In this document: positions 9,379 to 19,065 of the stretch, piece by piece
Layout of the letters: every line of letters begins with the position of its first letter
Numbering within the stretch: the first letter of the stretch is position 1
NCBI RefSeq assembly: GCF_020023995.1
Contig: NZ_NRRD01000002.1
Span: forward strand, 124,001 to 188,000
Reading direction: 5' to 3'
Length of the DNA stretch: 64,000 bases
From: Rhodobacter sp. TJ_12
GTDB lineage: Bacteria; Pseudomonadota; Alphaproteobacteria; Rhodobacterales; Rhodobacteraceae
The notes under the pieces: model-generated
The model's input: only the letters and a program-made list of their open reading frames with translations
What the model was told of the DNA's origin: nothing
Databases searched by the model: none
Translations under genes and position numbers: made by a program

Positions 9379-11349
9379 ATGAACACTCAGACGCAGCCCG
9401 TTGCCGCGCCCGAAATGCGCGAAGTTCCGGCGGGCTTCGAAAACGCCCATGCGGACCAGCAAAAATATCTGGAGATGTATCGGGAATCGATCGAGAACCC
9501 GGATGCCTTCTGGGGCCGCGAAGGTAAGCGTCTGGATTGGATGACGCCTTATACCACGGTCAAGAACACCGATTTCACCTTTGGCAAAGTGTCGATCAAG
9601 TGGTTCGAAGATGGTGTGCTGAACGCCTCGGTGAACTGTGTCGACCGCCACTTGAAAGATCGCTCGCTGCAAACCGCGATCATCTTTGAACCCGACGATC
9701 CGAATGAGCCCGCCCAGCACATCACCTATAAAGAGCTGTCCGAGAAGGTGAACCGGATGGCCAACGTGCTGTTGTCGCAAGGCATCATGCGCGGCGACCG
9801 GGTGGTGATCTACCTGCCGATGATCCCCGAAGCGGCTTACGCAATGCTGGCCTGTGCGCGGATCGGCGCGATCCATTCGATCGTTTTCGCGGGCTTCTCG
9901 CCCGATGCGCTGGCGAACCGGATCAACGATTGTAACGCCAAACTGGTGATTACCGCCGACACCGCCCCGCGTGGCGGGCGCCGCACGCCGCTGAAGGCCA
10001 ATACCGATGCCGCGCTTCTGCACTGCTCGGATAAAGTGCGCTGCTTGGTGGTGAAACGCACCAATGACCAAATTTCGTGGGTGCATGGCCGCGATGTGGA
10101 TCTGCTTTATCTGATGGATCACGTTTCGCCCGAATGCCCGCCGCGCCCGATGAACGCCGAAGACCCGCTGTTCATCCTTTATACCTCGGGCTCGACCGGC
10201 AAGCCGAAGGGCGTGGTGCACACGACCGGCGGTTACCTTGTCTATGCCGCGATGACCCACCAATACACCTTCGATTATCATGATGGGGACGTGTTCTGGT
10301 GCACCGCCGATGTGGGCTGGGTGACCGGGCACAGCTATATCATCTACGGCCCGCTGGCCAACGGCGCGACCACGGTGATGTTCGAAGGCGTGCCGACCTA
10401 TCCTGACCCGGGCCGGTTCTGGGCCGTGTGTGAAAAGCACAAGGTCAACCAGTTCTACACCGCGCCGACCGCGATCCGCGCGCTGATGGGCCAAGGCCCG
10501 GAATGGGTTGAGAAATATGACCTTTCCAGCATCAAGGTGCTGGGCTCGGTGGGCGAACCGATCAACCCCGAGGCTTGGGCGTGGTATGATACCTATGTCG
10601 GCAAGGGCAAATGCCCGATCGTTGACACGTTCTGGCAGACCGAAACCGGCGGCCATATGATCACCCCGCTGCCGGGCGCGACGCCGACCAAGCCGGGCTC
10701 TGCCTCGAACCCGTTCTTCGGTGTGAAGCCGGTGGTTTTGGACCCGCAAACCGCCGTTCGCATTGGCGAAGTGGAATGCGAAGGCGTGCTGTGCATCTCG
10801 GACAGCTGGCCGGGGCAGATGCGCACCGTTTGGGGCGACCATGACCGGTTCCAAGAAACCTACTTCGGGCAATATCGCGGCTATTACTTCACCGGCGACG
10901 GCTGCCGCCGCGACAAAGACGGCTACTACTGGATCACTGGCCGCGTCGATGACGTGATCAACGTTTCGGGCCACCGGATGGGCACTGCCGAGGTCGAAAG
11001 CGCGCTGGTGGCGCACCAGAAAGTGGCCGAGGCCGCCGTGGTGGGCTATCCGCATGACATCAAGGGGCAGGGCATCTATGCCTATGTCACGCTGATGAAC
11101 GGCGTCGAGCCGAGCGATGAGCTGCGCAAAGATCTGGTGAAATGGGTCCGCACCGAAATCGGCCCGATTGCCAGCCCCGACCTGATCCAATGGGCCCCGG
11201 GCCTGCCGAAGACCCGTTCGGGCAAGATCATGCGCCGCATCCTGCGCAAGATCGCCGAGAACGACTATGGCTCGCTTGGCGATATTTCCACCTTGGCCGA
11301 GCCGGGCGTGGTGCAAGAGCTGATCGACAACCGCATGAACCGGGGCTGA
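9379..11349 (+). CDS. acs: Acetyl-CoA synthetase (AMP-forming)
   Basis: Converts acetate, CoA and ATP to acetyl-CoA, AMP and pyrophosphate in the cytoplasm; the high-affinity acetate route. 656 residues, normal length. The adenylate-forming signature [11 protein letters not shown] starts near residue 268, [20 protein letters not shown] is the acetyl-CoA-synthetase-specific segment, and TRSGKIMRR near residue 612 carries the lysine that lysine acetylation silences in the family. It heads a co-directional block: an adenylate kinase starts four bases after its stop, then a symporter and regulatory genes. It is preceded by an AT-rich 365-bp control region. Confidence 0.97.
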
Positions 11350-11353
11350 GCCG

Positions 11354-12037
11354 GTGGACGCGCAAGCGACCACCAAGCCCGCCGTGCTGATCTTGCTCGG
11401 GCCTCCGGGCGCGGGCAAGGGCACGCAGGCGCGGATGCTGGAACAGCGCTTTGGCCTGATCCAGCTGTCCACCGGGGATCTGTTGCGCGCAGCAGTGGCT
11501 GCGGGCACGCCTGCGGGCCTTGCCGCGAAAGCGGTGATGGAAGCGGGCGGTTTGGTCTCTGATGAGATTGTGCTGGCGATCCTGAAGGACCGCATGGCCC
11601 AGCCCGATGTGAAGGCGGGTGTGATCTTGGATGGCTTTCCCCGCACCGCGGGGCAGGCTGCCGCGCTGGACGGTCTTTTGGCCGAGGCCGGGCAAGGCGT
11701 CACTGCCGCCATCAGCCTAGAGGTCGATGACGCGGCTATGATCGCGCGCGTCGCGGGCCGCTTCACCTGCGCCGATTGCGGCGAAGGCTATCATGATGAA
11801 TTCAAGCTGCCTGTGGAGGCGGGCACTTGTGACAAATGCGGCGGCACGGCGTTCAAACGCCGCGCTGACGATACTGCCGAGACGGCGCGTGCCAGGTTGG
11901 AGGCCTACCACGCGCAGACGGCGCCGCTGATCGCCCATTATCGGGGGCTTGGCGTTTTGGAGACGGTCGATGCGATGGACAGTATCGCGGCGGTTGCCTC
12001 CGAGCTTGGGTCGATCGTGACACGCGTCTCGGCCTGA
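11354..12037 (+). CDS. adk: Adenylate kinase with zinc-type lid
   Basis: Catalyses ATP + AMP = 2 ADP. 227 residues. Walker A GPPGAGKGT at 16-24, the AMP-binding STGDLLR, DGFPRT, and a lid with four cysteines (C139, C142, C159, C162) in CADC and CDKC pairs, the zinc-binding form of the long-type enzyme. The start is a GTG four bases after the acs stop, so translation is probably coupled. Since Acs produces AMP, a kinase in the same transcript would recycle it; that link is inference. It is probably not the housekeeping copy, which in relatives sits among ribosomal protein genes (not in the window). Confidence 0.92.
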   Translation: MDAQATTKPAVLILLGPPGAGKGTQARMLEQRFGLIQLSTGDLLRAAVAAGTPAGLAAKAVMEAGGLVSDEIVLAILKDRMAQPDVKAGVILDGFPRTAGQAAALDGLLAEAGQGVTAAISLEVDDAAMIARVAGRFTCADCGEGYHDEFKLPVEAGTCDKCGGTAFKRRADDTAETARARLEAYHAQTAPLIAHYRGLGVLETVDAMDSIAAVASELGSIVTRVSA

Positions 12038-12370: not shown

Positions 12371-14128
12371 ATGGATCAATTCGTTCTCAACATCATCGTT
12401 GTGGGCGCGACCTTCGCGCTTTACATCGGGATCGCGATTTGGGCCCGCGCGGGCTCGACCGCGGAATTTTATGCCGCCGGCCAAGGGGTTCACCCGGTGC
12501 TGAACGGTATGGCCACCGGCGCGGACTGGATGTCGGCCGCCTCTTTCATCTCGATGGCCGGTCTGATCGCCTTTGGCGGCTATGACACCTCGGTCTATCT
12601 GATGGGCTGGACCGGCGGCTATGTGCTGCTGGCGATGCTGCTTGCGCCTTATCTGCGCAAATTCGGCAAGTTCACCGTTCCGGAATTCATCGGCGACCGC
12701 TTCTATAGCAACGTCGCGCGGACCGTGGCCGTGATCTGCCTGATCACCGCGTCGCTGACCTATGTGATCGGTCAGATGACCGGTGTGGGCGTGGCCTTTT
12801 CGCGCTTCTTGGAAGTGTCGAACACGGCGGGTCTGTTCATCGGTGCGGCGATCGTCTTCATGTATGCCGTTTTGGGCGGCATGAAGGGCATCACCTACAC
12901 GCAGGTGGCGCAATATGTCGTGCTGATCATCGCCTATACGATCCCGGCGGTGTTCATCTCGCTCAACCTCACCGGCAATCCGATCCCGGCGCTGGGTCTG
13001 TTCTCGAACGACGTTTCGACCGGTGCGCCGATCCTGTCGACGCTTGAGGGCCTTGTCACCGATCTGGGCTTCAAATCCTATCTTGAACAGTCCGATACCA
13101 CGTTGAACATGTTCCTGTTCACCGTCTCGCTGATGATCGGGACCGCGGGTCTGCCCCACGTGATCGTGCGCTTCTTCACCGTGCCGAAAGTGGCCGATGC
13201 GCGCACCTCGGCGGGTTGGGCGCTGGTCTTCATCGCGCTGCTTTACCTGACGGCTCCGGCTGTGGGCGCGATGGCGCGCATGAACCTGATCAACACCTTC
13301 TACCCGAACGGGATCGAAGGTCAGGCGCTGTCGATGGCGGAAATCGAAGCGGGCGAAGATGCCTCGGGTGCGGATCTTGAATGGGTCAACAACTGGGCGA
13401 AAACCGGCCTGCTGGCGTTTGACGACAAAAACGGCGACGGCTTGATCACCTATGTCGGCGATGCCGAAGCCAACGAGTTGACCGTGAACCGCGACATCAT
13501 CGTGCTGGCCAACCCGGAAATCGCCCGTCTGCCGGGCTGGGTGATCGCGCTGGTGGCCGCCGGTGGTCTTGCCGCCGCTCTGTCGACCGCTGCGGGTCTG
13601 TTGATGGCCATTTCCTCGGCCGTGTCGCACGACCTCATCAAAGGGCAGATCAACCCGAACATCTCCGAAAAGGGCGAACTCATGGCCGCCCGGATCGCGA
13701 TGGCGGTGGCGATCGCTGTGGCCACCTATCTTGGCCTCAACCCTCCGGGCTTCGCGGCGCAGACCGTGGCTTTGGCCTTCGGCCTTGCCGCTGCCTCGAT
13801 CTTCCCGGCGCTGATGATGGGCATCTTCTCGAAGACGGTGAACAACACCGGGGCCGTGGCGGGGATGCTCGCCGGTCTGATCACGACCGTGCTCTACATC
13901 TTCTTGCACAAAGGCTGGTTCTTCATCGCGGGCACCAACACCTTCACCGATGCGGACCCGATGATCCTGTCGATCAAATCGACCTCGTTCGGCGCGATTG
14001 GCGCGGCGATCAACTTCGCGGTGGCCTTCATGGTCTCGTCGATCACCAAGCCGGTTCCGGCCAATGTGGTCGAACTGGTGGAATCGATCCGCGTGCCGAA
14101 AGGTGCGGGCGCGGCCACCGGTCACTAA
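12371..14128 (+). CDS. Sodium:solute symporter, VC_2705 branch (probable acetate/monocarboxylate)
   Basis: 585-residue inner-membrane symporter of the SSS family with about thirteen helices. TGADWMSAASFISMAG near residue 48 is the family motif shared with acetate permease ActP. Location after acs and DUF4212 suggests acetate or a related carboxylate as substrate; that is inference. Residues about 318-380 form a long hydrophilic insert holding DDKNGDGLITYV, which fits the first nine positions of an EF-hand loop (D352, N354, D356, G357, I359) but has Gly instead of Glu at position 12. The 84-bp gap after it contains a strong hairpin. Confidence 0.92.
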   Translation: MDQFVLNIIVVGATFALYIGIAIWARAGSTAEFYAAGQGVHPVLNGMATGADWMSAASFISMAGLIAFGGYDTSVYLMGWTGGYVLLAMLLAPYLRKFGKFTVPEFIGDRFYSNVARTVAVICLITASLTYVIGQMTGVGVAFSRFLEVSNTAGLFIGAAIVFMYAVLGGMKGITYTQVAQYVVLIIAYTIPAVFISLNLTGNPIPALGLFSNDVSTGAPILSTLEGLVTDLGFKSYLEQSDTTLNMFLFTVSLMIGTAGLPHVIVRFFTVPKVADARTSAGWALVFIALLYLTAPAVGAMARMNLINTFYPNGIEGQALSMAEIEAGEDASGADLEWVNNWAKTGLLAFDDKNGDGLITYVGDAEANELTVNRDIIVLANPEIARLPGWVIALVAAGGLAAALSTAAGLLMAISSAVSHDLIKGQINPNISEKGELMAARIAMAVAIAVATYLGLNPPGFAAQTVALAFGLAAASIFPALMMGIFSKTVNNTGAVAGMLAGLITTVLYIFLHKGWFFIAGTNTFTDADPMILSIKSTSFGAIGAAINFAVAFMVSSITKPVPANVVELVESIRVPKGAGAATGH

Positions 14129-14212: not shown

Positions 14213-16039
14213 ATGGAAACCGATCGTCAGGCCATCATCGCCTTTCTTGAAACGGTCCATCCCTATGACACCCTGCCGCGTGACGAGCTGGTTGACGTGG
14301 CCAGTTCCTTCCGCCGCATGGAATTCCGCCCCGAGGCGCTGATCTACGTCTACCAAACGCCGATTGGCGGGCTTTACCTGATCAAGCAAGGCGCGGTCGA
14401 AATCACCGATGGCAATGGCGGGCTGGTTTCGCTGCTTGGTCCGCGCAATTCCTTTGGCGAGCGCGGCATCATGCGCGACGGTCTGGCCGCGACGCAGGCC
14501 AAGGCGACCGAGCCGACGGTGTGCCTTGTGCTCCCCACCCCGACCTTCTTGCGGCTGATCGAGACCTATCCCTCGTTCGAGCGGTTCTTCAACCGCAAGC
14601 GCGGCGAAAAGGTCTCTAATGACATTGCCACGCAAAAGGTGGCCGATCTGATTGCCCGCAAGCCTTTGTCTTGCCCGCCCGACACAACGGTTGTGAGCGC
14701 GGCACAGATGATGCGTGATGCGCATGTCTCTTCGCTTGGTGTTGTGGGCGCGGGCGACAAGCTGCACGGGATCATCACCGTGCGGGACCTTGCCAACAAG
14801 GTTCTGGCCGAGGAAATGCCGGGGACGACCCCGGTCGATCAGGTGATGACGCCCGATCCGGTCAGTCTGCCGCCCACGGCTTTGGGCTCTGACATCCTGC
14901 ATATCATGCTGGAACGCCGGATCGGCCATTTGCCGATCACCGAAGACGGGCGCTTTGTCGGCATGATCACGCAAACCGATCTGACGCGGTTCCAAGCGGT
15001 GTCGTCGGCGGTGCTGATCCGCGATGTGGTCAGCGCAGATACTGTGGCGGAAATGGCCGCCGTCACCGCGCGCATTCCGCAATTGCTGACCCAATTGGTC
15101 GGCGGCCATCACAGCCATGAGGTCGTTACCCGGCTGATTACAGATATTGCCGATGCGGTCACCCGCCGCCTTTTGGTGATGGCTGAACGCGAATTGGGCG
15201 CACCGCCGGTGCCCTATCTGTGGCTTGCCTGCGGCAGCCAAGGGCGGCAGGAACAAACCGGCGTGTCGGACCAAGACAATTGCCTGATCGTCGATGATGC
15301 CGCCACAGAAGAGGATATGGAATATTTCCGTGCGCTGGCGAAGATCGTCTGCGATGGGTTGAACGCCTGCGGCTATGTTTATTGCCCGGGCGATATGATG
15401 GCGACGAACCCGCGCTGGTGCCAGCCCGCGCGCGTCTGGCGCGACTATTTCGCGGGCTGGGTCAACACCCCCAACCCCGAAGCGCAAATGCTGGCCTCGG
15501 TGATGTTTGACCTGCGCCCCATCGGCGGCGGCGGCATTGCCATGTTCGAAGCGATTCACGCCGAAACGCTCAATATGGCTGCGAAGAATTCGATCTTCGT
15601 GGCGCATATGATTTCCAACTCGCTCAAGCATACGCCGCCCTTGGGGCTTATTCGCGGCTTTGCCACGATCCGCTCGGGCGAGCATCGCAACCACATCGAT
15701 CTGAAGATGAATGGCGTTGTGCCGGTGGCCGATCTGGCGCGGATCTATGCGCTGCAAGGCAAGTTGCCCGAGGCGAACACCCGCGCCCGGCTGAAAGCGG
15801 CGGAAGAGCGGGGGGTGATTTCGGCCTCGGGGGCGCGCGATCTGATCGAGGCCTATGATCTGATTGCGACGATGCGGCTGGAAAACCAAGCCACGCTGAT
15901 CAAATCGGGCCGCGCGCCCGACAATTTCCTTGCCCCGTCGGATCTGAGCGATTTCGAGCGCGCGCATTTGCGCGATGCCTTTGTCGTGGTGCGCACGATG
16001 CAATCGGCGGCGGGCCACAACAAGGCGGTGGTAAGCTAA
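14213..16039 (+). CDS. cNMP-binding, CBS-pair, DUF294 nucleotidyltransferase
   Basis: 608-residue cytoplasmic regulator. In order: a cyclic-nucleotide-binding fold (about 15-125, LYLIKQGAVEI and GERGIMRDG), a CBS pair (about 150-270, VTPDP-type segments ending FVGMITQTDLTRF), then a DUF294 nucleotidyltransferase (about 300-440) with GSQGRQEQTGVSDQDN, the glycine-serine plus DxD pattern of GlnD-like enzymes, and a helical DUF294 C-terminal domain. The catalytic residues look intact. Family members lie beside acetate-type symporters and exonucleases in other proteobacteria, as I recall. It may nucleotidylate a protein partner in response to a bound nucleotide; the target is unknown. The next gene starts one base after its stop. 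Confidence 0.9.
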   Translation: METDRQAIIAFLETVHPYDTLPRDELVDVASSFRRMEFRPEALIYVYQTPIGGLYLIKQGAVEITDGNGGLVSLLGPRNSFGERGIMRDGLAATQAKATEPTVCLVLPTPTFLRLIETYPSFERFFNRKRGEKVSNDIATQKVADLIARKPLSCPPDTTVVSAAQMMRDAHVSSLGVVGAGDKLHGIITVRDLANKVLAEEMPGTTPVDQVMTPDPVSLPPTALGSDILHIMLERRIGHLPITEDGRFVGMITQTDLTRFQAVSSAVLIRDVVSADTVAEMAAVTARIPQLLTQLVGGHHSHEVVTRLITDIADAVTRRLLVMAERELGAPPVPYLWLACGSQGRQEQTGVSDQDNCLIVDDAATEEDMEYFRALAKIVCDGLNACGYVYCPGDMMATNPRWCQPARVWRDYFAGWVNTPNPEAQMLASVMFDLRPIGGGGIAMFEAIHAETLNMAAKNSIFVAHMISNSLKHTPPLGLIRGFATIRSGEHRNHIDLKMNGVVPVADLARIYALQGKLPEANTRARLKAAEERGVISASGARDLIEAYDLIATMRLENQATLIKSGRAPDNFLAPSDLSDFERAHLRDAFVVVRTMQSAAGHNKAVVS

Positions 16040-16040
16040 G

Positions 16041-16568
16041 ATGACCAACGATTTCATCATCATGATCGCCGCGGGCGCGTTTGCGGGGCTCGTGGCCTTT
16101 TTGCTGCGCCACTCGGCCCGCAAGCTTTTGCGGCTTGATCTGCCGAAATGGCTGATGCCTGCGGCGGCGGGTCTTGCCATGCTCGGCGTCACGATCTGGG
16201 GCGAATACCACTGGTTCACACAGGCACGCGGCGGTCTGCCGGCGGGGGCGGTGGTGTTGCAAAGCAATGCCGAAGCCACGCCTTGGCGCCCGTGGAGCTA
16301 TCTCTGGCCGGTGACGAACCGCTTTGTGGCGCTTGATACTGCCAATCGCGCCCAGCCCGCCGAAGGCGTGGTGGTGGCGAACCTGTATTTGGTGGCGCGC
16401 TGGCAGCCGGTCCAGCCTGTCACCGTTGCGTATGATTGCACCGGCCATCGCCAAGCCATTCTGGGAGGAGAGGCGGCGGTGAACGCGGATGGGTCTTTGA
16501 CGGCGGGCAAATGGCTGCCCGCGCCGATGCCCGACGCGGGGTTGAATGCCGCCTGCACGGGAGGATGA
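16041..16568 (+). CDS. Small two-helix membrane protein, unknown
   Basis: 175 residues, not recognised. Two hydrophobic helices (about 4-22 and 39-56) are followed by about 120 residues probably in the periplasm, with few motifs (WSYLWPVTNRF, VTVAYDC) and two cysteines near the C-terminus (about 134 and 172) that could form a disulfide. The gene begins one base after the nucleotidyltransferase stop and ends one base before the response regulator start, so it belongs to the same translation-coupled unit. Its position suggests a membrane accessory to the signalling pair, but there is no direct evidence. Confidence 0.8.
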   Translation: MTNDFIIMIAAGAFAGLVAFLLRHSARKLLRLDLPKWLMPAAAGLAMLGVTIWGEYHWFTQARGGLPAGAVVLQSNAEATPWRPWSYLWPVTNRFVALDTANRAQPAEGVVVANLYLVARWQPVQPVTVAYDCTGHRQAILGGEAAVNADGSLTAGKWLPAPMPDAGLNAACTGG

Positions 16569-16569
16569 G

Positions 16570-16962
16570 ATGGCAGACGGGGGGAGAAAACGGCGCGTTT
16601 TGATTGTCGAGGATGAAGACAATATCGCGATCGCGCTGGACTATCTGATGAGCCGCGAAGGGTTTGAGCACGACCGGATCGCATCGGGTCGGGGCGCGCT
16701 GGAACGCATTCGCACCGAACAGCCCGATCTGGTGCTTTTGGATGTGATGCTGCCCGAGGTGTCGGGCTATGAAATCTGCCAAGAGGTGCGCGCCGATACC
16801 GGCCTGTCGGATGTGAAAATCCTGATGATGACGGCGCGCGGCTCAGCGATGGAGCGGCGCAAGGGGCTTGCCCTGGGCGCCGATGGCTTCATTGCCAAAC
16901 CTTTTGAACTCAAGGAATTGCGCGACGAGGTGCACAGGCTTTTGGACGCCGAGGGGGCCTAG
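16570..16962 (+). CDS. Receiver-only response regulator
   Basis: 130 residues, a single REC domain with no output domain. The acidic pair ED near residue 14, the phospho-accepting D58 in LVLLDVMLPE, the threonine in LMMTARG and the lysine in FIAKPFE are all present, so it should be phosphorylatable. The ATG at 16570 follows GGGAGGATGAG and is preferred to an in-frame ATG eight codons upstream inside the previous gene. It abuts the sensor-exonuclease gene with no gap. As that neighbour lacks a phospho-accepting histidine, the kinase must come from elsewhere or the pair works without classical phosphotransfer (inference). Confidence 0.9.
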   Translation: MADGGRKRRVLIVEDEDNIAIALDYLMSREGFEHDRIASGRGALERIRTEQPDLVLLDVMLPEVSGYEICQEVRADTGLSDVKILMMTARGSAMERRKGLALGADGFIAKPFELKELRDEVHRLLDAEGA

Positions 16963-19065
16963 ATGAACCTTGCCCGCCTTAGCCTGCGTTTGCGCATTTT
17001 CCTGTTCTTCGCGGCACTGGCGCTGGGCAATATCGCGGCGTTGGTGGCGGGGCTGGTATTTGGCTTTGAAAAGCTGGGCGCGCCCGAGGCATTGGATGGT
17101 TTCGTGATCGGTGGTGTGGTGGCCGGGTTCGCCATCACCGGATTGATCACTGGCGTGTGGTTTTTGTTCGATGAAAACGTGGCCAAACCGATCGAGCGGT
17201 TGGCGGGCGGCATTCGGGCGCGCACCCATGCGCAGGTGGACACCGATCTGGATTTGTTCGCGGGGCGCTACTTGGGCGATCTGGCCCCGGCGGCGGCGGC
17301 GATCACCCAGCATCTGAATGCAACGCGTTCCGCGCTGACCGAATCCGTGCAGCGCGAAACCACCCGGCTGGCGCAGGAAAAAGAACGGCTGGAAACTTTG
17401 CTTAGCGATGTGCCGGTGGGGGTGCTTTTGTGCACAGCGGACCATCAGCTTGTGTTCTATAACGGGCAGGCGACCGATCTTTTGGGCGGCGCGCATGCCC
17501 CGGGGCTGGACCGGCGGGTGTTCGACTATTTGCATCGTGCGCCGATCCGCCATGCCTATGAACGGCTTTTGGAAACCGATGACCCGGATGCGGCCTCGGA
17601 TCTTTTGTGCGCCACCGTGGCCGATGGCAAAACGCTGGCCGCGCGGATGCGGCTGATTTCCGAAGGCGAAGATCACCATGTCACGCGCCGCGCGGGCTAT
17701 GTGCTGACCTTGCGCGATGTCTCGGCCGATATGCGCGCCCATGCCAGCCGTGAAGCACTGATGGACGAGCTTTTCGACCGTATTCGGCGCCCGGCGGCGG
17801 CGCTGCAATCGCTGACCGGGGTGTTGATCGCCGATGATGGGCCGGCTGAACCCGAAGCGCGGGCGCAATTGCGCAACGCGGCACGGGCCGAGGCGGCGAA
17901 CCTTGGCGCGGCGATCCACACGTTGTTTGAACGCCACGAGACGATGCGCGCCGATTGGTGGCCGCTGGCGATGATCCGCGCTTCTGATCTGGGCGAGGCG
18001 GTGCGTGCGCGCGTCGCGGCGCAGGGCGGGGAAGATGTGATGGCGGTGACCGCGCCCTTGATGCTGCGGCTTGAAGGGTTCGAGATGGTCTCGCTTTGGG
18101 CGATGCTGGTGGCGCGTTTGGGGCCGGAGCGGCGCGACAAACGCCTTGAGATCATCGAAGAAGGCGCGGGCGCGCTGATCGCGCTTGAATGGCGCGGGGC
18201 GCAGGTGCCGATTTCCGATCTGGAAAGCTGGCTGGATGATCCGCTGGAAGTGGGCATGGATGACGTGACCGGGCGGCGGGTGATTGCCGCCCATGCCTCT
18301 GAAATCTGGCCAGAAAATCTGGGCGAGGGGCGCGGGCGCATCTGTCTGCCGCTGCGCGAGGCGCGGCGCGTGTCCAAGCGCCCGCCGCCGGTGCCGCGCG
18401 CGGTGGTTTATGATTTCGACCTGCTCGGCCGCGCGCGCGACGGCGAAATAGCCCAGACCCCGTTGGAAAACATCAATTTCGTGGTCTTCGACACCGAAAC
18501 CACCGGGCTTTTGCCAAGCGAAGGCGATGAGATCGTGCAAATCGCGGCGGTGCGGATCGTCAACGGCCGCCGGGTCGAGACCGAGGTATTTGATACGCTG
18601 GTCAATCCGGGCCGGCGTATCCCCGAAATGTCGACCGCCGTGCATGGGATTTCGGATGCAATGGTGGCCGAGGCGCCCGACATTATCGAAGTGGGGCGGC
18701 GGTTTCACAAATTCGCCGAAGGCGCGGTGCTGATCGCGCATAACGCGCCCTTCGACATGGAATTTCTGCGCCGCAAGGAAGCCGCGATTGGGCTGCGTTT
18801 TGACAATCCGGTGTTGGATACGGTCTTGCTGTCCGCCGTCGTTTTTGGACAATCCGAGGTGCATAGTCTGGATGCGTTAACGCATCGGCTGGGCATCACC
18901 ATCCCCGAAGAGGCGCGCCATACCGCGATTGGCGATACCGTCGCCACGGCGGATGCGTTTTTGAAGCTGCTGCCCGCGCTGAAATCGCGGGGGCTTGTCA
19001 CCTTTGGCGATGTGGTGGCCGAGGTGCGCAAACACGGCCGCCTGCTCAAGGATCTGAACGGCTAA
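16963..19065 (+). CDS. Membrane HAMP-PAS-pseudo-histidine kinase fused to DEDDh exonuclease
   Basis: 700 residues. Two transmembrane helices (about 12-35 and 46-70) and a HAMP-like linker are followed by a coiled segment, a PAS domain (about 140-250), and a region laid out like a histidine kinase dimerisation domain (about 262-330), but where SHELRTPL is expected it reads FDRIRRPA, so the phospho-accepting His is Asp. The following ATPase-like region has no clear N, G1 or G2 boxes. Residues about 505-675 are a full DnaQ-type 3'-5' exonuclease: VVFDTETTGL, IAHNAPFDMEFL and HTAIGDTVATA supply all DEDDh residues. Start codon abuts the receiver gene stop. Likely membrane-tethered nuclease controlled by sensing; substrate unknown. 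Confidence 0.9.
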   Translation: MNLARLSLRLRIFLFFAALALGNIAALVAGLVFGFEKLGAPEALDGFVIGGVVAGFAITGLITGVWFLFDENVAKPIERLAGGIRARTHAQVDTDLDLFAGRYLGDLAPAAAAITQHLNATRSALTESVQRETTRLAQEKERLETLLSDVPVGVLLCTADHQLVFYNGQATDLLGGAHAPGLDRRVFDYLHRAPIRHAYERLLETDDPDAASDLLCATVADGKTLAARMRLISEGEDHHVTRRAGYVLTLRDVSADMRAHASREALMDELFDRIRRPAAALQSLTGVLIADDGPAEPEARAQLRNAARAEAANLGAAIHTLFERHETMRADWWPLAMIRASDLGEAVRARVAAQGGEDVMAVTAPLMLRLEGFEMVSLWAMLVARLGPERRDKRLEIIEEGAGALIALEWRGAQVPISDLESWLDDPLEVGMDDVTGRRVIAAHASEIWPENLGEGRGRICLPLREARRVSKRPPPVPRAVVYDFDLLGRARDGEIAQTPLENINFVVFDTETTGLLPSEGDEIVQIAAVRIVNGRRVETEVFDTLVNPGRRIPEMSTAVHGISDAMVAEAPDIIEVGRRFHKFAEGAVLIAHNAPFDMEFLRRKEAAIGLRFDNPVLDTVLLSAVVFGQSEVHSLDALTHRLGITIPEEARHTAIGDTVATADAFLKLLPALKSRGLVTFGDVVAEVRKHGRLLKDLNG

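Follow-up and report, generated by a model that had tools for sequence, protein, structure and literature searches.

A stretch of 64,000 nucleotides from the Rhodobacter sp. TJ_12 genome (Alphaproteobacteria; Rhodobacteraceae; contig NZ_NRRD01000002.1, positions 124,001 to 188,000 of the forward strand), hereafter the window, encodes a membrane protein in which a region resembling a histidine kinase is followed by a DEDDh exonuclease. A first-pass annotation of this DNA had described the protein as one chain of 700 residues, and its open reading frame (ORF) at 16963-19065 confirms this. Immediately 5' of this ORF, on the same strand, lies the stop codon of a gene for a single-domain response regulator (RR), whose start may alternatively be placed at 16570, right behind the stop of the preceding gene. 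The features of the two genes are as follows.

16546..16962, + strand: single-domain RR, a lone receiver of 138 residues (Pfam Response_reg, E 1.2e-26)
16963..19065, + strand: pseudokinase-exonuclease fusion gene, ORF of 700 residues (window plus 78 aligned homologues)
16996..17169, + strand: two transmembrane helices, residues about 12-36 and 45-69 (hydropathy)
17383..17727, + strand: PAS domain, residues about 141-255 (Pfam PAS_8/PAS_4, sub-threshold in the window protein)
17719..17955, + strand: DHp-like two-helix hairpin, residues 253-331 (AlphaFold2, Foldseek), proposed RR docking site
17773..17796, + strand: FDRIRRPA motif, with Asp272 (17776-17778) at the phospho-His position
17971..18369, + strand: CA-like (GHKL-fold) domain without N, G1 and G2 boxes, residues 337-469 (AlphaFold2 predicted local confidence, pLDDT, mostly >90)
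18481..18960, + strand: DEDDh exonuclease domain, residues 507-666 (Pfam RNase_T, E 7.2e-38)

Domain architecture and lost kinase chemistry

The N-terminal part of the fusion agrees in most respects with the earlier description. Its two membrane helices are borne out by hydropathy segments and AlphaFold2 helices (residues 8-38 and 41-89). The PAS domain is supported across the alignment, where PAS_4 reached E<=0.01 in 20 of 30 sequences, the window protein itself staying sub-threshold. A HAMP domain had also been proposed and finds no support (0/30 aligned sequences at E<=0.01).

The central region had been read as a kinase-like dimerisation region joined to an ATPase-like one, and predicted structure upholds this more firmly than sequence does. 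An AlphaFold2 model based on an alignment of 66 sequences (pLDDT 91.1, predicted template modelling score 0.68) consists of a hairpin and then an alpha/beta domain. Searched against the PDB with Foldseek, the module model matched LvrB (8vc9) first and HK853-RR468 complexes next, with DivL (4q20) at rank 10. The best E-value was 2.6e-10; over the first 50 matches the query template modelling scores were 0.38-0.46 and the root-mean-square deviations large, as would be expected if the two subdomains were hinged differently. A DHp and CA fold of the kinase type is thus supported by the model, and no non-kinase fold was encountered.

By sequence, the likeness can be traced only weakly. The window protein has no HisKA or HATPase match at E<=1 in Pfam, and its middle region has no Pfam match above cut-off. 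Among the 66 members scanned there was likewise no HATPase_c match at E<=1 and a single HisKA match (E 0.18), while two distant relatives (L098 and L099) reach a HisKA E of 0.011, which is still below cut-off. A weak hhalign alignment with seven canonical kinases from the window's genome (E 0.0078, probability 5%, 212 columns) places Asp272 on the phospho-His, and a PDB profile search of the module gave CpxA as its best match (E 0.039).

The replacement of the phospho-accepting His by Asp, which had been noticed in the single protein, extends to its homologues. Asp272 stands five residues before the conserved Pro277, at the HisKA His position, and across the window protein and 78 homologues this position is D in 77, E in 1 and A in 1. 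Where an RR is adjacent (111 sequences, the window included), the counts are D 82, E 23, A 3, S 2, T 1 and H 0, so that the residue is acidic in 105/111 and no relative examined has a His. The motif that follows the acidic residue is kept inside and outside the class, with Arg275, Arg276 and Pro277 conserved in 101/102, 89/102 and 95/102 sequences. Moreover, the N, G1 and G2 nucleotide boxes, already missed in the single protein, are absent on visual inspection of 30 and 16 aligned rows. With neither His nor boxes in these alignments, kinase chemistry appears to be lost in every relative examined and an acidic residue favoured in place of the His, where, speculatively, it might mimic phospho-His.

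The C-terminal nuclease is complete, as had been claimed, with its RNase_T match and all catalytic residues present. The best solved structure by sequence is the PolC exonuclease (2p1j, E 2.6e-24). The catalytic residues D510, E512, D598, H653 and D658 are kept in 155, 156, 155, 154 and 154 of 156 aligned sequences; only two copies deviate, L179, which is degenerate, and L027, which is cut by a contig end.

Two further copies of the fusion gene are irregular. The short fusion at L179:5956-7296 has a nuclease in which E512 is the only one of the five catalytic residues left, and it is possibly a pseudo-enzyme. In Sinirhodobacter sp. WL0062, which has an intact copy (L005), a second, frame-broken copy (L066) lies on another contig. 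An identity as DNA polymerase III epsilon was rejected for the window protein, which scores 110.9 bits in TIGR01406 vs a cut-off of 222.7; the genome encodes a genuine epsilon elsewhere, on another contig, which passes with 266.1 bits.

Joint retention of the hairpin and the response regulator gene

The presence of the DHp-like hairpin goes together with that of the RR gene. An RR lies directly upstream in 111/113 hairpin-bearing loci vs 0/48 assessable fusions without a hairpin; these counts express association, not prevalence. Divided taxonomically, the association holds in 101/103 hairpin-bearing fusions from the window, its family and other alphaproteobacteria, and in 10/10 from outside the class. 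One of the two hairpin loci without an upstream RR, L013, is cut by a contig end inside the gene; the other is L141, to which we return below. The adjacent RRs retain their acceptor Asp and conserved Lys in 111/111 cases.

The fusions that lack a hairpin are of two kinds, 44 short forms and 4 forms that have only the CA-like part; none of them has an RR, and the same is true of a fifth CA-only form, L280, which comes from outside the class. We consider the CA-only forms (L164-L167 and L280) the most telling, since the ATPase-like half is retained in them and only the proposed docking site is gone along with the RR. The short same-family forms leave no room for an RR gene, as the fusion starts <=29 nucleotides after the gene for a 175-residue protein in 39/39 loci with that gene in view. 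Because hairpin and RR gene are kept or lost jointly, the hairpin is most likely the docking site of the RR, a reading that draws on comparative sequence data. The first-pass annotation had pictured the fusion as a sensor complete in itself, the RR alongside being unrelated to it; this coupling speaks against that picture.

The loci were drawn from several samples. Loci L003-L082 are the 80 that most resemble the window among 208, and full-length forms are consequently over-represented among them. The family sample comprises stretches from 57 of 78 family genomes with a match, picked to include short and divergent forms along with some full ones. The loci from other members of the class are the 20 best non-family matches, accompanied by two further family genomes, and those from outside the class are 20 stretches from DUF294 matches, partly picked for odd frame lengths. 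No locus was picked by its RR state, except L271, L272 and their kin, short stretches of two having shown an RR. In L163, L051 and L054 the RR is present inside a longer open frame, and in L143 it is divergent. Locus L178, with an unrecognised insert of 253 residues and no RR, stands outside the 48 (including it, 0/49). Also outside the counts are L168 (cut at the contig start), L152-L156 and L158 (DnaQ without a membrane/PAS match), L066 and L074 (frame-broken full-length copies) and L200 (a repeat of L133).

The candidate kinase and the acetate and DUF294 genes

The receiver beside the fusion has an intact phosphorylation site and, as the earlier reading held, no recognised kinase beside it within the window; none of the 31 HATPase_c matches of the genome is on the window's contig. 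A candidate appears in more distant relatives, where a symporter-fused histidine kinase (SSS-HK) adjoins the RR and fusion in 14/21 hairpin loci outside the family. The order RR - fusion - SSS-HK occurs in 7/11 hairpin loci of other alphaproteobacteria (L140, L142, L145-L149; the L144 stretch is too short to judge), and the three genes are consecutive in 7/10 outside the class. Three scanned SSS-HKs (from L148, L145 and the window's own genome) have HisKA and HATPase matches above cut-offs. A single SSS-HK occurs in the window's genome, on contig 19, next to a lone receiver of its own; its neighbours are as follows.

L159:7065-7478, - strand: lone receiver
L159:7534-8892, - strand: upstream XRE-type regulator, which we take to resemble short-chain acyl regulators

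The gene neighbourhoods suggest that the kinase for the fusion-linked RR is probably the SSS-HK. Within the family, its link to this RR would be one of descent, not of present adjacency.

The genes 5' of the RR and fusion run in the same direction and include the following.

9379..11349, + strand: acetyl-CoA synthetase (TIGR02188, 1023 bits vs cut-off 725)
12371..14128, + strand: VC_2705-family sodium:solute symporter (TIGR03648, 808 bits vs cut-off 321)
14213..16039, + strand: cNMP-binding/CBS/DUF294 putative nucleotidyltransferase (Pfam)
16041..16568, + strand: 175-residue protein, family unassigned, with one N-terminal hydrophobic segment (hydropathy)

Between the synthetase and the symporter lies a further ORF of this group (11354-12037), presumably adenylate-kinase-like. 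The 175-residue protein has no Pfam match above cut-off and no NCBIfam match; its gene sits between DUF294 and the RR/fusion in nearly all family loci, short forms included, and its product is possibly a member of the same complex.

The pairing of nuclease and DUF294 reaches beyond the family. In a phylum-wide search of 200 genomes, 78 of them with a DUF294 match, 25 of the best 30 loci had a DnaQ homologue no more than about 1.5 kb away. Of the other five, three (the window, L253 and L259) are cases in which the N-terminal part of a fusion runs off the short stretch, and L256 and L258 have no DnaQ near DUF294, nor in the longer stretches L273 and L274. Among 20 such longer stretches no DnaQ was found at the DUF294 loci L273, L274, L277 and L286. 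Outside the family, the DnaQ beside DUF294 is an open frame of 231-269 residues in 20/22 such loci, with no membrane/PAS or pseudokinase match. This adjacency suggests that the nuclease-DUF294 pair is an older and wider unit, to which the membrane-PAS-pseudokinase part and the RR look like a regulatory addition. In another alphaproteobacterium, a single open frame of 712 residues (L287:6503-8638) matches both DnaQ and DUF294, which suggests a direct fusion of the two enzymes.

Two sources bear on the function of the DUF294 neighbour. Passages of PMC5715377 predict nucleotidylation for a Pseudomonas fluorescens protein of the same domain make-up, and passages of PMC3710099 group the DUF294_C domain with those of GlnD/GlnE.

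Proposed mechanism, alternatives and related systems

The fusion is probably an RR-sensing variant of a pseudokinase with a nuclease output; the arrangement is real, conserved and more organised than was first noted. The idea of a sensor whose output is a nuclease survives in part: the nuclease as signalling output and the loss of kinase chemistry stand, while the HAMP domain and the self-contained sensor fall away. We hypothesize, with a rough probability of 0.55, that a two-component pathway for short-chain carboxylates has the fusion as its terminal effector and runs from SSS-HK through phosphorylated RR and pseudokinase to the exonuclease, together with DUF294. In this pathway an SSS-HK resembling CrbS would phosphorylate the single-domain RR. 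The RR, or its phosphorylated form, would then dock on the DHp-like hairpin, as the pattern of co-loss and the fold suggest, so that the hairpin would act as an RR receptor. Docking, tuned by the PAS and membrane part, would switch the DEDDh exonuclease through the geometry of a coiled-coil dimer. Finally, the nuclease may work with DUF294, most simply, if speculatively, by removing nucleotides that DUF294 has added to a protein or an RNA end. The first steps are drawn from comparative genomics and fold, and the last, the substrate shared with DUF294, from adjacency only.

A more specific version describes a writer and an eraser, in which a carboxylate-reading SSS-HK and a receiver docked on the pseudokinase would control a membrane-bound DEDDh nuclease that erases nucleotidyl marks set by the cNMP/CBS-sensing DUF294 transferase, tuning acetate uptake and activation. 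We hold this version tentatively and would sooner expect it to fail in some particular.

A number of observations weigh against the proposed pathway. Sequence-profile support for kinase homology is weak. Locus L141 has a hairpin, but its RR adjoins an SSS-HK 1.6 kb away and not the fusion; conversely, an RR adjoins the SSS-HK in L150 and L151 although both lack the hairpin, which means that the RR can serve another function. The loci are also related by descent: on a quickly built tree of 93 sequences each trait must have changed at least 9 times, and in the only three supported independent pairs that could be formed the traits agreed in 2.8 on average and were never opposed (sign test, median p 0.25), while a Fisher p of 4e-39 ignores relatedness and is not taken as a probability. 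Covariation between RR and hairpin was assessed in 111 pairs (effective number 57); its mean over the specificity positions of helix 1 exceeded the null with p 0.075, and the top-scoring pairs lay elsewhere. As for the kinase, no SSS-HK was recognised in view at five loci with hairpin and RR, two from other alphaproteobacteria (L139, L143) and three from outside the class (L282, L283, L290). Inside the family an SSS-HK lies near the fusion in 1/92 hairpin loci within the stretch examined, the sole case being L177, with the order SSS-HK - RR - fusion. Moreover, a lone receiver accompanies the SSS-HK in 21/21 family stretches examined, and the SSS-HK occurs in 133/149 sampled family genomes whatever the fusion type. 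A kinase that has its own receiver and is present regardless of fusion type makes the link to the window's RR indirect. In a tree of RRs, the family's fusion-linked and kinase-linked receivers separate, on branches that are weak and in some cases very long. Lastly, passages of PMC5715377 state that a mutant of the P. fluorescens gene mentioned above is without phenotype.

The alternative that survives best, which is the model of the first-pass annotation, is that the PAS and membrane part senses a ligand and signals to the nuclease through a dead kinase that is a mere spacer, the RR having a separate target. A membrane-PAS part can indeed join a nuclease directly, as in the short fusions of 39 same-family loci, which have neither kinase-like module nor RR. 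The hairpin does not behave as a neutral spacer, however, since it goes together with the RR gene, and we consider this explanation unlikely.

The same co-occurrence of hairpin and RR would be expected if the kinase-like module were a sink or reader that lowers or stabilises the pool of phosphorylated RR, with the nuclease constitutively active. There is precedent in DivL, which lengthens the life of phosphorylated DivK according to passages of PMC4211667, and L150 and L151 suggest that the RR can function without the module. In that case, though, it would be arbitrary for the module to be fused to a conserved nuclease, and the RR, a lone receiver, lacks an output domain, nor was any other target of it found here; a sink or reader of this kind strikes us as quite improbable.

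We give still less credence to the view that the module is a decaying relic of an active kinase and its RR, the parts having been lost together by linkage and the module now serving only for dimerisation. The graded series of full-length, CA-only and short forms could be read in this way, as could the weak sequence similarity to kinases. A relic would vary, however, and both the motif behind the acidic residue (Arg275 and Pro277 above all) and the acceptor Asp of the RR are kept; nor does any active version occur among the relatives examined. That the protein is an additional, membrane-tethered proofreading subunit of the replication machinery, as its DEDDh/DnaQ homology might suggest, is scarcely credible, given its score below the epsilon cut-off, the genuine epsilon in the genome and the linkage of the gene to acetate and DUF294 genes instead.

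Among characterised systems, DivL of Caulobacter is among the closest in design, the likeness being one of fold match: it too has a phospho-site without His, a DHp and CA fold, PAS input and an RR partner. To our knowledge, no enzyme domain is fused to DivL. Its phospho-site is a Tyr where the fusion has Asp or Glu, and it acts on CckA, whereas the output of the fusion is its C-terminal DEDDh exonuclease. Passages of PMC4211667 describe DivL as lacking kinase activity and reading phosphorylated DivK through a docking surface, a precedent for the proposed role of the dead module as an RR receptor. LvrB, the top structural match of the module, is a hybrid regulator with a receiver, a relation indicated by the structure search only.

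The candidate kinase recalls the CrbS/CrbR acetate switch and other SLC5/STAC kinases, which are likewise fused to a symporter. In passages of PMC5715377 and PMC9100948, acs is a target of CrbS/CrbR, and the system is discussed together with a cAMP-binding/CBS/nucleotidyltransferase protein; according to passages of the latter, SLC5/STAC kinases control acetate or pyruvate use via LuxR-type regulators. CrbR is a LuxR-type transcription activator, whereas the RR of the window is a lone receiver beside a nuclease fusion. The nuclease itself shares its catalytic domain and residues with DnaQ and PolC, but is membrane-bound, carries a PAS domain and a pseudokinase, and is not the replicative epsilon. 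Stand-alone DnaQ proteins beside DUF294 in other Proteobacteria share the exonuclease-DUF294 neighbourhood of the fusion.

A search of open-licence papers found no description of such a fusion or of a nuclease output, and passages of PMC5436829 mention neither an exonuclease nor a nucleotidyltransferase. If the proposed pathway is correct, this pseudo-histidine kinase now serves as the receptor of a receiver protein, with a direct link to a nuclease. We know of no example of a nuclease as the output of a two-component system. The pathway would also provide a function, and a likely kinase, for the lone RRs of the family, and would open the DUF294-DnaQ pair beside acetate genes, so far uncharacterised, to experiment. 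Full-length, CA-only and short forms make up a deletion series found in nature, which suggests ready-made constructs.

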